Assembly (NCBI RefSeq): GCF_000585355.1
Contig: NZ_KK073873.1
Coordinates: 460,703-524,702 of the forward strand
Origin: Xylanibacter oryzae DSM 17970
GTDB lineage: Bacteria > Bacteroidota > Bacteroidia > Bacteroidales > Bacteroidaceae
Direction of reading: 5' to 3'
DNA length: 64,000 nucleotides
The notes under the pieces were generated by a model that did no database searches, was not told where the DNA came from, and worked only from the letters and a program-made list of their open reading frames with translations. Shown in pieces: positions 38,852 through 44,743 of this stretch (position 1 is its first letter; every line of letters starts with the position of its first letter). Made by a program: the position numbers and the translations under genes.

Positions 38852-39907
38852 CTATGATATTATGTCACGTATGTCCTTGATCAACGAATAGGTGTTCTTT
38901 AATGATTCAAATGAAGAACGACAACTGCTGCTTTTGCATTCAACCAAGTCGACAAAATTTTTTATCTCATTGAAATAACCTTGCGTATATATTTGATTGT
39001 TTGCCATTACTGGTGAAAAATTATTCCTTGCAGATAATTTTACATATGAAGAATGTCTATGCATAAACTTTTCAGTTGGTACGCCAAATATAGCCTTGCT
39101 TTTTGAGGAGAATGCAAGCTCTTCCATTTGTTTTAGAGAATAAGTTCCGTTGGCTGCATTAATAGTTATTGATTCGCATGCATCAGCCCATGTGTATGCT
39201 GTTGAAAGTTCAAGTATGCCTGTTGTATCGCAATGCTGAAGAATCAGCATAATGGTCAGACCACCATCTTTATTCTTTACATAATCGATACCTTTAATCT
39301 TAGCCTCGCCAAAAAGATATACTACGTAGTCAAGCGGATGTATGAACAAATCAAAAAGAGGATCTCCTTCAGGATATAGGCCTGTAAGGTATTTCAAGTT
39401 ATAACTTATGCATTTGTCGTGTTTTATTCTATCTGTCAAAGCGTCTGTGAGTGGCGAATACCTCTTCTGCAATCCAGCCATTGAGACAGGTGAACCATAT
39501 ATCTTTACCTTGTCAATAAGATTATTCAATTCTTCAAGAGAATAACAAGGAGGCTTCTCTATGAAAAGAGATTTCCCGCTTTTTAATATCTTTGAAGCTA
39601 AATTATAATGTGAAGCAGGTGAGGCCGAAACAAATATTCCTTTAATTTCCTTATCTTCCAATATTTCATCAATGGAGGTCGTTCCCTTTACTCCTGCATA
39701 TTTGTGTTGTATCATTTTTGCTTTATCGGTAGACTGGCAACAGATATATTTTAATTTAACTTGCAGGTAATTCAGAATGGGGTATAAGTTATTAAGGCTA
39801 TGGCTTCCTATCCCTACAAATGCGTAGTTGCCGTAATAGACATTCCGCAATAGTTTTCTACTGTTTATGTCTTTGTACCTGTGTATTAATCCATTTATGT
39901 ATTTCAT
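38852..39907 (-). CDS. Gfo/Idh/MocA-family NAD(P)-dependent oxidoreductase
   Basis: Start placed at the ATG at 39907 (MKYINGLIHRYKDIN), 11 bp after the radical SAM stop; a longer frame would overlap that gene by 58 nt. About 351 residues: Rossmann fold beginning YGNYAFVGIGSHSL, the EKP motif (LFIEKPPCYS) of Gfo/Idh/MocA enzymes, then the C-terminal alpha/beta domain. These enzymes oxidise or reduce sugars or cyclitols. The first glycine-rich motif GIGSHSL is slightly unusual. It is the last gene of a run with the radical SAM protein, suggesting a joint pathway. Confidence 0.85.
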   Translation of the reverse strand: MKYINGLIHRYKDINSRKLLRNVYYGNYAFVGIGSHSLNNLYPILNYLQVKLKYICCQSTDKAKMIQHKYAGVKGTTSIDEILEDKEIKGIFVSASPASHYNLASKILKSGKSLFIEKPPCYSLEELNNLIDKVKIYGSPVSMAGLQKRYSPLTDALTDRIKHDKCISYNLKYLTGLYPEGDPLFDLFIHPLDYVVYLFGEAKIKGIDYVKNKDGGLTIMLILQHCDTTGILELSTAYTWADACESITINAANGTYSLKQMEELAFSSKSKAIFGVPTEKFMHRHSSYVKLSARNNFSPVMANNQIYTQGYFNEIKNFVDLVECKSSSCRSSFESLKNTYSLIKDIRDIIS

Positions 39908-39918
39908 ATTATGTAAAA

Positions 39919-40986
39919 TTACTTTTCGATTTCTGCAAAATATTGTTTGTAAGTCTGTTTTTTGTCTTCCGACCATTGATATTCTCCATAAAAAGCTTCA
40001 ATAACCCTTTTGGGAAATAGTTTCTCAAAATTTCTCAAAAGGATTATATCATATTTCCTATGATAGTTTATCCAGCAACCATTGCATTCTTTGGTATATT
40101 TACATTGTATGCTGCATGAATCTTTGGAATTGAAAATCTCGTCTAATGATTTCTCGTGTATGTTCCCCAAAATTACATCCAGATTCTGGCACAGTGGGAC
40201 ATTGCCGTTAGAATGAATGACCAATTCGCTGAAAATGCTCTGGCATCGCAACTTAAGATGTCCATTACGCCATTCATCATAAAAAGCTACAAAATCATAG
40301 TTCTCGTCTGTATCATGAATATTGTTAGGGATATGTCTGATGTAATTCTCCATGTCGGCAGAAAGCAGCTCGCCTGAAGTATCAAAAAAGGACATAGTAC
40401 CATATATACCTATACGTACATCTATACCATACCTTTTGGCCACATTTATAACAAATTCCATATCCTTGAAATTATTCCATGGAGACAGGCAAAACATTAA
40501 TGACATGGGCACAACATCCTTAAGAGACTCTACTACATCAATAACCTTATCATAACCATCTCTGCCTCTCATCTCCAGATATGTATTACGATTGCCGTCG
40601 AGCGAAACATATAGATGGGCCGGATGATACCTTTTTACCATATCTTTCACCTTGGTAGGAGCAAGACAGTTAGACAGAAGTGTATAGTTGGGATGGTTAT
40701 TCATAAACCACTCCATTATTTCATTTGCCTGTGGATGGAGTACGAACTCACCACCTTCAAGTCCTATTACGGTCTTTCTTGTTATACACTTACTCTTCAT
40801 TATTTTCTTAATGTCGTCAAGTGATAGATGCTCCTCCGGTTTTTTCCATATAGAGCAGTGTTTGCACTTAGACTGACATAGAGTCGTAGAATATATCATC
40901 AGCGAACTCAATGTCTTATGTTGCGGACGAGTGATATTGTTGAGATATAGACGTCCATTATGGACGTAGTCACTAATACTGTACAT
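39919..40986 (-). CDS. Radical SAM/SPASM protein
   Basis: Start set at the ATG at 40986 (MYSISDYVHNGRLYLNN); an upstream ATG at 41034 would add 16 residues. About 355 residues. The SAM cluster is CQSKCKHC (CxxxCxxC), and a C-terminal SPASM-like region has CQNLDVILGN, CSIQC, KECNGC and further Cys. Such proteins usually modify peptides or carbohydrates using an auxiliary Fe-S cluster. Its closest neighbour, 11 bp downstream, is a Gfo/Idh/MocA oxidoreductase. No peptide precursor gene was seen nearby. Confidence 0.88.
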   Translation of the reverse strand: MYSISDYVHNGRLYLNNITRPQHKTLSSLMIYSTTLCQSKCKHCSIWKKPEEHLSLDDIKKIMKSKCITRKTVIGLEGGEFVLHPQANEIMEWFMNNHPNYTLLSNCLAPTKVKDMVKRYHPAHLYVSLDGNRNTYLEMRGRDGYDKVIDVVESLKDVVPMSLMFCLSPWNNFKDMEFVINVAKRYGIDVRIGIYGTMSFFDTSGELLSADMENYIRHIPNNIHDTDENYDFVAFYDEWRNGHLKLRCQSIFSELVIHSNGNVPLCQNLDVILGNIHEKSLDEIFNSKDSCSIQCKYTKECNGCWINYHRKYDIILLRNFEKLFPKRVIEAFYGEYQWSEDKKQTYKQYFAEIEK

Positions 40987-41059
40987 TATTCTTTTTAATT
41001 TAAGGGTTCTATGAGTATAGTCCCCCAAAATCAAAAAGACTGCTTGACGTTTCTTCTTT

Positions 41060-42703
41060 TTACCACGTAAACCTAATACCGAATGGCATAGTTACATAGA
41101 ATGGATGTTCTGTCCATATCGTGTGAGTACTGCTTCCCGTTGGTATGTAATAGTTGAGCGTCGGTTCAAGATAGACACTAAAGTTAGGTGTCAGCTTATA
41201 TTGCAGGCCAAAGCTTGTATTCAGCGACCACTGTAAAGGAACATTCACTTTACTACTGCCTATATCCATAGGTATAGAGTCGGTGAGGAGCCGTTCGTTG
41301 ATTTTTCCGCCTAGAGGGATATTAATCAATAGTCCGGCAGACCCGTAAGCTGATACTCTCTTATATCCTATTATGCGATATGAGAGACGCAATGGTATAC
41401 CGAGATAGTGCACTTTCTGGTATTTGCATATATTGTTGCTGCCGCTGCCCATTGTGAATGTTGATTTCAGCATAGAATATTGAAGTCCTGTTTCAAAACT
41501 CCAGTTGTCGTTCAGTGTCTTTGTCAATGAAAGACCTATTGTGATAGGCTTTTCGTGCTTCTCATTCTCGATAATACGGCCACTGTTATTCTTGGCGATA
41601 TTCATCAGAGCAATAGAATCGGCAGGAGAGTGTTCGTTTGTCCTTGTTGCCAAGTCCTTATAAAGTTCTTCCCATGTAGTTATATTTCCGGCATCACTTG
41701 TTAATGTATTAGAAGAAATCATCTTGTATACTCCCTGAGCAAGTGCAGGACCTGCAGAACCAGCAAGCAGCATATTCCATTTGCTCTTTTTATGTCTGTG
41801 TGTTATTGGGATATTATCATAATCAATTTTATTATAATGCTCAGGAATAGGTATATCTTTTGACTTTGGTGCTTCAGACTTATGCGAGTCTGTTGAGTCA
41901 CAGATGGCCTGAACAGTATCATTACAGATAGAAGGGTTGCACTCTTTATTGTAATGAGATGTCTCAATCTTATTAGCCATATACTGATTTTTAATCACAT
42001 TGCCATTTATGCCACTTTCATTTCTTTGAGTTGCATTCTTTTCATTCTTTATCTCCTTACAGACTTCAGACGAATTCTTTATTTTATTAGAGTTGTATGG
42101 CTGCTTTCTTTTACAATATTTGTATATTGGCAGCATAAGTATGGCAATGATAATAAGAGTGATGGCACGATAGTCTGATAAGTACTTTCTAAGTATAGCC
42201 TTGGCACGGTATAATTGTGATGAAGAAGAATGTGGCTCAATGCCCAGTATGTCAGCTATTTCTTTGTGTGAAAGACCCTCTATAACAGAAAGTCTGAAAA
42301 TGGTACGATAACCTTCAGGCAATTTCTCTATCATTTCGAGTAGTTCATGTACAGAAATGGAATTATCGTTTTTATATCCTTCTTCAGGTATTTCGATATC
42401 CTCTTCTTTTAGTGCAGACAGTTCAATACGTCTTACTGACTTAGACTTCTCCAAATACTTTAAAGATAGATGTTTGGTTATAGTAGTAATCCACTGCCCG
42501 AATCTTTCAGGGTTACGCAGTTTACCTATAGATGCAAATGCTATTATAAAGGCGTCATGGACAAGATCTTCAGCATCGTCCTTGTTTCCCTTTATAATTT
42601 TTATGCATACGCCTTTCATCTTGTCGGCATATGCATTATATAGGCTTCCAAGAGCATCTGCATCTCCTTCCTTAGCTCGTTCTACAACTCTTTCCAAATT
42701 CAT
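41060..42703 (-). CDS. ECF sigma factor fused to a membrane anchor and an outer-membrane beta-barrel domain
   Basis: One uninterrupted frame of 547 residues. Residues 1-175 are an ECF sigma factor: region 2 (LVHDAFIIAFASIGKLRNPERF) and region 4 (LPEGYRTIFRLSVIEGLSHKEIADILGI). Residues about 182-198 form one membrane helix (ITLIIIAILMLPIYKYC). A polar linker of about 180 residues follows, then from about 375 a PorT/OMP_b-brl-like barrel (LSLTKTLNDNWSFETGLQYS ... PFGIRFTW, ending in W). In Bacteroidota the sigma factor and the anchored barrel protein are normally two genes; here they are one polypeptide. The radical SAM gene is 73 bp downstream on the same strand. Confidence 0.85.
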   Translation of the reverse strand: MNLERVVERAKEGDADALGSLYNAYADKMKGVCIKIIKGNKDDAEDLVHDAFIIAFASIGKLRNPERFGQWITTITKHLSLKYLEKSKSVRRIELSALKEEDIEIPEEGYKNDNSISVHELLEMIEKLPEGYRTIFRLSVIEGLSHKEIADILGIEPHSSSSQLYRAKAILRKYLSDYRAITLIIIAILMLPIYKYCKRKQPYNSNKIKNSSEVCKEIKNEKNATQRNESGINGNVIKNQYMANKIETSHYNKECNPSICNDTVQAICDSTDSHKSEAPKSKDIPIPEHYNKIDYDNIPITHRHKKSKWNMLLAGSAGPALAQGVYKMISSNTLTSDAGNITTWEELYKDLATRTNEHSPADSIALMNIAKNNSGRIIENEKHEKPITIGLSLTKTLNDNWSFETGLQYSMLKSTFTMGSGSNNICKYQKVHYLGIPLRLSYRIIGYKRVSAYGSAGLLINIPLGGKINERLLTDSIPMDIGSSKVNVPLQWSLNTSFGLQYKLTPNFSVYLEPTLNYYIPTGSSTHTIWTEHPFYVTMPFGIRFTW

Positions 42704-42939
42704 ACAAGAAATGTCTTTTAATTAGTATAGATATGGTAGTTGTAGAAAGACTGCATGATTTATTGTTATTTTTTTCAAAATATTTTTTTGCCTTTGATAT
42801 TCTATATTAAATACAGCAATAGCAAGTTTGTCTTCAAAGGTAATAATAATATATTTAATGGCAAAACTTCATTTTCGTTTTTGCGTGCTTATTTCTATAC
42901 CCATCTGTATGTATGAATCTTTACAATTATGTTCTGAAT
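42704..42939. other. Upstream region of the sigma-barrel gene
   Basis: AT-rich, no gene and no consensus promoter box that I can support. Ends where the left inverted repeat of the nested element begins. Confidence 0.5.
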
Positions 42940-43403: not shown

Positions 43404-43826
43404 ATGGAAGTATTAAAAGAAAAAGGTTTACAATTCAAGAACAAACGTGGTCCCCATGGAACACCGGAGTGTATCCGTATAGCAACCGTTATCGATGTCC
43501 TAAGCGGCATGAGTCGTAATGATGTGGCAAAAAAATATTGTGTTGATCCTACCAATATATCAAGATGGAAGGTTATCTTTGCATCAAGAAAAGAAGTAAA
43601 GGAGGAGTTAGCCATGAGAAAGATAACCTCAAAGAAATCTCATTCGTCAATGAGCATGCATCCTGAAGACCAAGTTCTTGAACTTGCCTCAATCAAGAAA
43701 GAGTTACTTGATAAGGAAATCCAAATCAGGGATATTCAGGAGCGTCTTGATATAGCCAATACAATGATAGATGTGGCCGAAAAGCTGTTCCACATCGAGA
43801 TTAAAAAAAAACTTGGTTCGAAGTAG
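43404..43826 (+). CDS. IS3-family transposase OrfA
   Basis: 140 residues: N-terminal helix-turn-helix (IATVIDVLSGMSRNDVAKKY then DPTNISRWKV) that recognises the IS ends, and a C-terminal coiled coil (LASIKKELLDKEIQIRDIQ) for oligomerisation. Its stop codon overlaps the start region of orfB, as in IS3 elements that use -1 frameshifting to make the OrfAB fusion; a run of A (AAAAAAAA at 43804-43811) shortly before the stop could be the slippage site. Confidence 0.9.
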   Translation: MEVLKEKGLQFKNKRGPHGTPECIRIATVIDVLSGMSRNDVAKKYCVDPTNISRWKVIFASRKEVKEELAMRKITSKKSHSSMSMHPEDQVLELASIKKELLDKEIQIRDIQERLDIANTMIDVAEKLFHIEIKKKLGSK

Positions 43827-44743
43827 TGAAGAGTCTTTTCGAAGATAAAGAAAACACTTATACAGTAGTTTCTCTCTGCAAGATTATAGGATATACAAAA
43901 CAGGCATACTATAAACATGAGAATTCAATATCAGAAGATGCTATGCGCCATGAAATAATTATTCAGGCGATATATTCTATAAGAGAAAAGATGCCGGATT
44001 TGAGCTGTGACAAGGTTCATAGAATACTATTAAAACGTCTTCCTTCGGATCTGACAATAGGCAGGAAGGCAACATACGATCTGATGCGAATACACGGTCT
44101 TATCCGACACAAGCGCTGCTATCGTACACAAACGACCTTGACCGTTTATAGGTTGGAATATCACGATTTGATAAAGGACCTATTCATAGACCATCCTAAT
44201 CAAGTATGGGTTGCTGATATAACATATATCCGACTAGAGTCCGGTGACTTTATTTATCTTGGGCTTATAACAGATCTATATTCCCGTAAGATAATTGGAT
44301 GGAATTTGTCAGAAAGCCTTGCACAGGAAGGTGCGATGTCTGCATTGAAGATGGCTTTGGCAATGTTACCTGCAGGTGTGATGCCGATACATCATTCAGA
44401 CCGGGGCTGTCAGTATTATAGCAAAATATATACGGATCTACTCAAATCTGTTGGTATGCAAATTAGCATGTATACGGATGGTGACCCAAGAAATAACGCC
44501 GTTGCCGAGAGAATTAATGGAACAATCAAAAATGAAATGCTCTGTGATAAAGTAATCTATGGATTGGATGATGGATTTATAAAAGTTTGTAGGGCTATTC
44601 ATATATATAATGATGAACGTCCTCATTTAAGCCTTGATTATCATACACCAGAAGAAGCTTATCATATGAGTGGAAATATAAGAAGACGATGGAATACTAA
44701 TTATAAAAAGAAGGAGGTACTACTTGAAATAATAGAAAAGTAA
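43826..44743 (+). CDS. IS3-family transposase OrfB (DDE integrase core)
   Basis: 305 residues with an N-terminal HTH_21-like domain (CDKVHRILLKRLPSD) and an rve integrase core. The catalytic triad is in WVADITYI (D), HHSDRGCQY (D) and NNAVAERINGTIKNE (E); the C-terminal YNDERPHLSLDYHTPEEAY is typical of IS3. It looks intact. The GTG-type start within the orfA end is consistent with frameshift expression. Confidence 0.93.
   Translation: MKSLFEDKENTYTVVSLCKIIGYTKQAYYKHENSISEDAMRHEIIIQAIYSIREKMPDLSCDKVHRILLKRLPSDLTIGRKATYDLMRIHGLIRHKRCYRTQTTLTVYRLEYHDLIKDLFIDHPNQVWVADITYIRLESGDFIYLGLITDLYSRKIIGWNLSESLAQEGAMSALKMALAMLPAGVMPIHHSDRGCQYYSKIYTDLLKSVGMQISMYTDGDPRNNAVAERINGTIKNEMLCDKVIYGLDDGFIKVCRAIHIYNDERPHLSLDYHTPEEAYHMSGNIRRRWNTNYKKKEVLLEIIEK

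Follow-up and report, generated by a model that had tools for sequence, protein, structure and literature searches.

In Xylanibacter oryzae DSM 17970, a single gene encodes an ECF sigma factor, a membrane helix, a polar linker and an outer-membrane beta-barrel in one chain of 547 residues. It is a Dma3-type single-chain regulator, and this joined architecture is already known from Dma3 of Bacteroides thetaiotaomicron. What our analysis adds, from sequences and structure models, is that the anti-sigma domain of the other Dma proteins is absent, with the sigma4 recognition helix leading straight into the transmembrane (TM) helix at fixed spacing, and that a putative two-box promoter pair and a linkage to three predicted target families (63 of 70 loci) accompany the fused genes. 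We lean towards an autoregulated sigma factor that, once released from its membrane tether, would drive the adjacent operon. The window referred to below is the whole stretch analyzed, 64,000 nucleotides of contig NZ_KK073873.1 (positions 460,703 to 524,702).

Domain Organization of the Fused Protein

The ORF list gives one ATG-started frame of 547 codons; the preliminary description of this DNA had placed it correctly but had missed that it lies on the minus strand. No stop or frame break was seen near residue 176. The protein features are as follows.

41060..42703, minus strand: fused gene (Dma3-type), ECF sigma, TM, linker and outer-membrane barrel, 547 aa (ORF list, Pfam, alignment, AlphaFold)
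42176..42703, minus strand: sigma domain (regions 2 and 4), residues 1-176 (Pfam/NCBIfam, Foldseek)
42107..42235, minus strand: predicted continuous helix, residues 157-199, from sigma4 recognition helix (157-175) to membrane helix (about 180-199, with Pro192) (AlphaFold)
41783..42106, minus strand: disordered periplasmic linker, residues 200-307 (pLDDT <50, 71% polar)
41063..41779, minus strand: outer-membrane beta-barrel, residues 309-547 (Pfam, Foldseek, HHalign)

Both sigma regions that had been described were matched by Pfam above the curated cut-offs (Sigma70_r2, residues 21-88, 2.4e-10; Sigma70_r4_2, residues 120-169, 1.9e-15), the nearest named sigma model in NCBIfam being TIGR02985 at 92 bits against a cut-off of 126. 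The barrel was likewise found above the curated cut-off (OMP_b-brl_2, residues 377-511, 4.4e-9), and the chain ends, as had been noted, in a tryptophan, W547, which is nearly invariant among the homologues. Foldseek placed the sigma half near ECF sigma chains (SigW, sigma E, AlgU) in RNA polymerase or anti-sigma complexes and the barrel half near OmpA/OmpW. Topology prediction gave one hydrophobic helix with its peak at about 175-199, in line with the membrane helix expected near 182-198. The whole-protein AlphaFold model, built with 20 homologues, is confident in the helical sigma regions and in the barrel and leaves residues 200-307 disordered. The linker thus comprises 108 residues and not the roughly 180 polar residues first proposed, because the first barrel strand, carrying a KW motif, lies at 309-317 and is followed by a loop with two short helices before the next strand. 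The modeled protein would extend from the inner membrane through the periplasm to the outer membrane, which supports the earlier reading of a sigma factor, an inner-membrane anchor, a periplasmic linker and a barrel in one polypeptide.

The Fused Form Is an Old Lineage Distinct from the Split Pairs

The probability that an assembly or sequencing artefact joined two genes is practically nil. One-frame, full-length homologues with 31-48% identity occur in many genomes, some of them single-contig or closed. Among 150 genomes of the genus, at least about 50 have sigma and barrel in one open frame, and the matches listed for 301 genomes of the family include more than 60 full-length fused copies from at least a dozen genera. 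Since dozens of single-frame homologues come from independent assemblies, closed genomes included, and form one clade, the artefact explanation is refuted, and so is the notion that all homologues might be split. Outside the family, only one genome (with two copies) was found among 295 of the order, and none among 297 genomes across the phylum at the threshold used, with four candidates scored per genome.

In a tree of the sigma domains, from which five rows of distant ECF paralogues were left out, the fused set and two broken copies make up one side of a branch (SH-aLRT 100, one change). A first tree that included the distant paralogues rooted inside the fused set, with long branches, and was set aside. 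The fused form is, from these sequences, an old and widespread lineage, one clade apart from the split pairs. Candidates for natural re-splitting were rejected, as the copies L067 and L054 are frame-broken or stop-interrupted genes within the fused clade and not working split pairs. Fused genes with stops or frame breaks (L054, L067 and, with breaks, L189) were each seen in a single genome.

The preliminary description had taken separate genes to be the usual arrangement, and the split Dma/Das (Reo/EcfO) pairs are indeed the commoner form. The same genome holds one such Das/Dma-type pair outside the window (L002, G000:C1:2107616-2109462), in which a 192-aa ECF sigma gene overlaps the gene of a 436-aa protein whose N-terminal cytoplasmic domain is followed by a TM, a linker and a barrel. 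This split protein aligns with the fused one from the TM through the end of the barrel. HHalign matched the fused barrels to a set of split Dma-like barrels, assembled by architecture and not from named Dma1/Dma2 sequences, with a probability of 100 and an E-value of 1.5e-54. The distance from the TM to the strand-2 motif is also similar, with medians of 206 and 194 residues in the fused and split forms, respectively. In the neighborhood of the fused gene, no separate cognate ECF sigma gene adjoins it.

The Recognition Helix Is Predicted to Run into the Membrane Helix

In the split Dma-like proteins, 40-70 residues with a conserved W..LR.KM...P.GLW-like motif precede the TM. No such cytoplasmic anti-sigma domain was found ahead of the TM in the fused protein, the distance from the RA of the sigma4 motif SSSSQLxRA to the TM being only 10-12 residues in 56 of 61 fused proteins. 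Neither an anti-sigma domain nor an anti-sigma gene was found at the fused locus, so the earlier suggestion of a regulator with no separate anti-sigma held. An AlphaFold model of residues 111-204 with 51 homologues shows residues 157-199 as one helix, with pLDDT of 83-96 over most of it; recognition helix and membrane helix are therefore predicted to be a single helix. A proline lies within the TM in 69 of 76 fused proteins vs. 7 of 30 split ones. With no anti-sigma domain and a fixed spacing between sigma4 and the TM, restraint would have to come from the tethering itself.

Comparison with Known Systems

Pardue et al. (2026) described Dma3 of B. thetaiotaomicron (bt_2778-2779) as a Dma-family protein that has an N-terminal sigma domain and lacks a cognate sigma gene next to it (PMC13088901), and BT2778 carries the annotation of a sigma-70 family factor (PMC10434189). 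The architecture of the fused gene is therefore not new, and the novelty implied by the preliminary description falls away. The bt_2778-2779 genes are induced as a unit in dma1 and dma2 mutants, and deletion of dma3 leaves the vesiculation of these mutants unchanged, its role being called open (PMC13088901). The X. oryzae protein has the features of the Dma3 type, namely the N-terminal sigma domain, the single TM, the disordered linker, the Dma-like barrel and the lack of an adjacent sigma gene, the homology being inferred from this architecture. The Dma3 locus comprises two genes, and in other genera of the family, too, the fused gene is directly followed by a predicted target gene; in X. oryzae the neighbors are radical SAM and Gfo/Idh genes. 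The remark on Dma3 was the only description of the fused form that we found in the literature, and it discusses no promoter, target or loss of an anti-sigma domain (PMC13088901).

The split Dma1 and Dma2 proteins, called Reo elsewhere, reach across both membranes and, as anti-sigma factors, keep an ECF sigma factor in check; loss of Dma leads to vesiculation or to a stress regulon (PMC13088901; PMC9308784; PMC13114119). Dma1/Das1, Dma2/Das2 and EcfO-Reo resemble the fused protein in having an ECF sigma factor, one TM, a linker of similar length and a homologous barrel, but are encoded by two genes and carry a cytoplasmic anti-sigma domain of 40-70 residues before the TM. IutY of Pseudomonas putida (ECF243) also combines sigma factor and membrane anchor in one chain, a sigma factor fused to a TM anti-sigma factor and freed by Prc and RseP (reviewed in PMC8999054). 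Its anti-sigma extension, however, acts in cell-surface (iron-siderophore) signaling and has no covalently attached barrel; Pfam found no FecR-like anti-sigma domain in the fused protein, and inspection revealed no receptor among the adjacent ORFs. In Actinobacteria, ECF48/52/53 members such as SCO4117 have a C-terminal TM extension on the ECF sigma factor as well, for which proteolysis has been proposed (PMC8999054). These differ in having a zinc-finger anti-sigma domain and no outer-membrane barrel, and between sigma4 and the TM of the fused protein there is neither room for such a domain nor its motif.

A Conserved Putative Promoter Pair Flanks the Fused Gene

The fused gene and the operon behind it are preceded by a shared promoter-like element. 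Neither this pair nor the adjacent operon had figured in the preliminary description.

42726..42755, minus strand: putative promoter 1, ECF-type, -35 TGCAGTC at 42755-42749 and -10 TATCTATA at 42733-42726 (conservation, genome pattern)
41014..41043, minus strand: putative promoter 2 with the same boxes, GCAGTCTTT N14 CTATACT (conservation, genome pattern)

Promoter 1 lies about 52 nt upstream of the fused-gene ATG, with about 17 nt separating TGCAGTC from TATCTATA or from a variant specific to the clade. Promoter 2 stands between the fused gene, whose stop codon is 17 nt away, and a radical SAM gene, whose ATG follows after 27 nt. The element GCAGTC(T/A)TT was found upstream of 53 of 60 distinct fused genes (reversed control, 0 of 60) and within 60 nt after the stop codon at 49 of 62 fused loci (reversed controls, 0). 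TGCAGTCTTT by itself was rejected as a regulon marker, with 23 genome matches vs. 5 in the control and only the fused gene in promoter position; being too short to define a regulon, it was replaced by the two-box pattern. The window's variant of this pattern matched twice in the 3.29-Mb genome, at promoter 1 (window 42724-42754) and at promoter 2 (41014-41043; control, 0), and not at all in shuffles of the window. Across eight whole genomes there were 15 matches, all just before or after a fused gene (control, 0). The -10 zones upstream and downstream of one locus were more alike than those of different loci (0.559 vs. 0.490), which was reached in 0 of 2000 shuffles, a test that ignores the relatedness of the loci. 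Several split sigma genes carry a TGCAACC or TGCAGYN variant in the corresponding upstream position, as would suit an ECF -35 box, and TGCAGTC was assigned accordingly; a -10 role for it was rejected since an upstream AAC box lies too close. From their conservation, promoters 1 and 2 are predicted to be ECF-type promoters. The divergent copies L184 and L185 have no promoter match.

These results bear on two other explanations. The N-terminal domain could be a decoy that binds RNA polymerase or promoter and is no longer an activator. This is very improbable, as sigma regions 2 and 4 are strongly conserved throughout the fused clade and both the fused gene and its neighbors stand behind a conserved ECF-type promoter. 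Alternatively, nascent chains might give a short pulse of free sigma that ends when barrel and anchor are inserted, activity then reporting the rate or success of assembly. The sigma domain is made before the anchor and the conserved promoter precedes the fused gene itself, both as expected in that case, but membrane targeting is expected to be co-translational, and we regard such a timing mechanism as improbable.

Predicted Target Genes

39919..40986, minus strand: predicted target 1, radical SAM/SPASM protein, 355 aa (PF04055 and PF13186 above cut-off)
38852..39976, minus strand: predicted target 2, Gfo/Idh/MocA-family oxidoreductase, up to 374 aa (PF01408)

The Gfo/Idh gene overlaps the end of the radical SAM gene, and its start codon is uncertain, homologues having 340-366 aa. 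The radical SAM and Gfo/Idh pair is kept across loci. At 63 of 70 loci, the 4 kb after the fused gene hold a member of one or two of three families, namely radical SAM homologues, class I methyltransferases and lipoproteins of ~188 aa, leaving 7 of 70 with none of them. In the genus, 32 genomes hold a close radical SAM homologue, and in 27 of these a fused gene lies no more than 2.5 kb away; three of the other five hits were near contig ends. The homology search found no close characterized relative of the target enzymes. One guess would be that the product of the operon modifies an envelope component.

A Model for Release of the Sigma Factor

In the model that we favor, the C-terminal helix of the sigma domain would keep this domain at the inner membrane, with the barrel in the outer membrane and the linker spanning the periplasm. 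Since the -35 recognition helix and the membrane helix are predicted to form one rigid helix, this tethered form would bind promoters poorly. If the barrel or the outer membrane were disturbed, the linker would be cut first and then, by an RseP-like site-2 protease, the proline-containing membrane helix, and the free sigma factor would switch on its own gene and the neighboring radical SAM and Gfo/Idh operon. Restraint by the tether, autoregulation and control of the operon are here inferred. Release is probably by intramembrane proteolysis: RseP-like cleavage is favored by the continuous helix and by the proline in the TM, the genome has one M50 (RseP-type) peptidase gene, and IutY offers a precedent, so that this step is drawn by analogy, helix-breaking residues in a TM being only suggestive of it.

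One could also imagine a sigma factor active while tethered, in the manner of ToxR or CadC, where a change in barrel or linker reorients the uncleaved sigma domain for local transcription at the membrane. Such a local, membrane-bound regulator would be well matched to the predicted regulon, which has just two promoters, next to its own gene, and there is no anti-sigma domain in need of removal. This is nevertheless unlikely, as a recognition helix predicted to be continuous with the TM at a fixed spacing should hinder docking of the RNA polymerase holoenzyme. Against the favored model as a whole we count the 7 of 70 loci without targets, L184 and L185, which lack the promoter, and the lack of a vesiculation effect upon dma3 deletion in B. 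thetaiotaomicron (PMC13088901), which leaves an envelope role presumptive.

If the promoter pair is right, then each Dma3-type protein has a predicted promoter and a small target set, and signal, release and output could be tested with one reporter. If the model as a whole is true, one chain lacking any anti-sigma domain would carry signals from the outer membrane to the DNA. To the fullest version, a self-contained regulator of three compartments whose recognition helix starts the anchor and whose barrel directly gates one enzyme set through a private two-promoter regulon, with no anti-sigma factor, we give about an even chance.

Variation among Loci

L184 (4546-6129) and L185 (4338-5921) represent a divergent fused lineage with TSGSQL for SSSSQL in which the TGCAGTC promoter and all three target families are missing. 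At L193, L203, L205 and L211, a promoter copy stands before each of two successive target transcripts, the first with the gene right after the fused gene and the second with the radical SAM and Gfo/Idh genes. Other genes stand behind promoter 2 at two loci: the one at L139 (8291-9208) encodes 306 aa with a signal-like start and without any Pfam match, and the product of the one at L127 (8890-9924), 345 aa long, matches a fucosyltransferase model only weakly. In the window, a transposase-like two-ORF pair that looks IS3-type lies on the plus strand at 43404-44743, on the upstream side of the fused gene and about 650 nt away from it; promoter 1 is intact. Across the phylum, TGCAACC boxes precede split ECF sigma genes (L075, L099, L103, L106, L112, L116 and L118), followed in several by a CATCTTA-like box, and this sequence pattern suggests a general autoregulatory ECF promoter.
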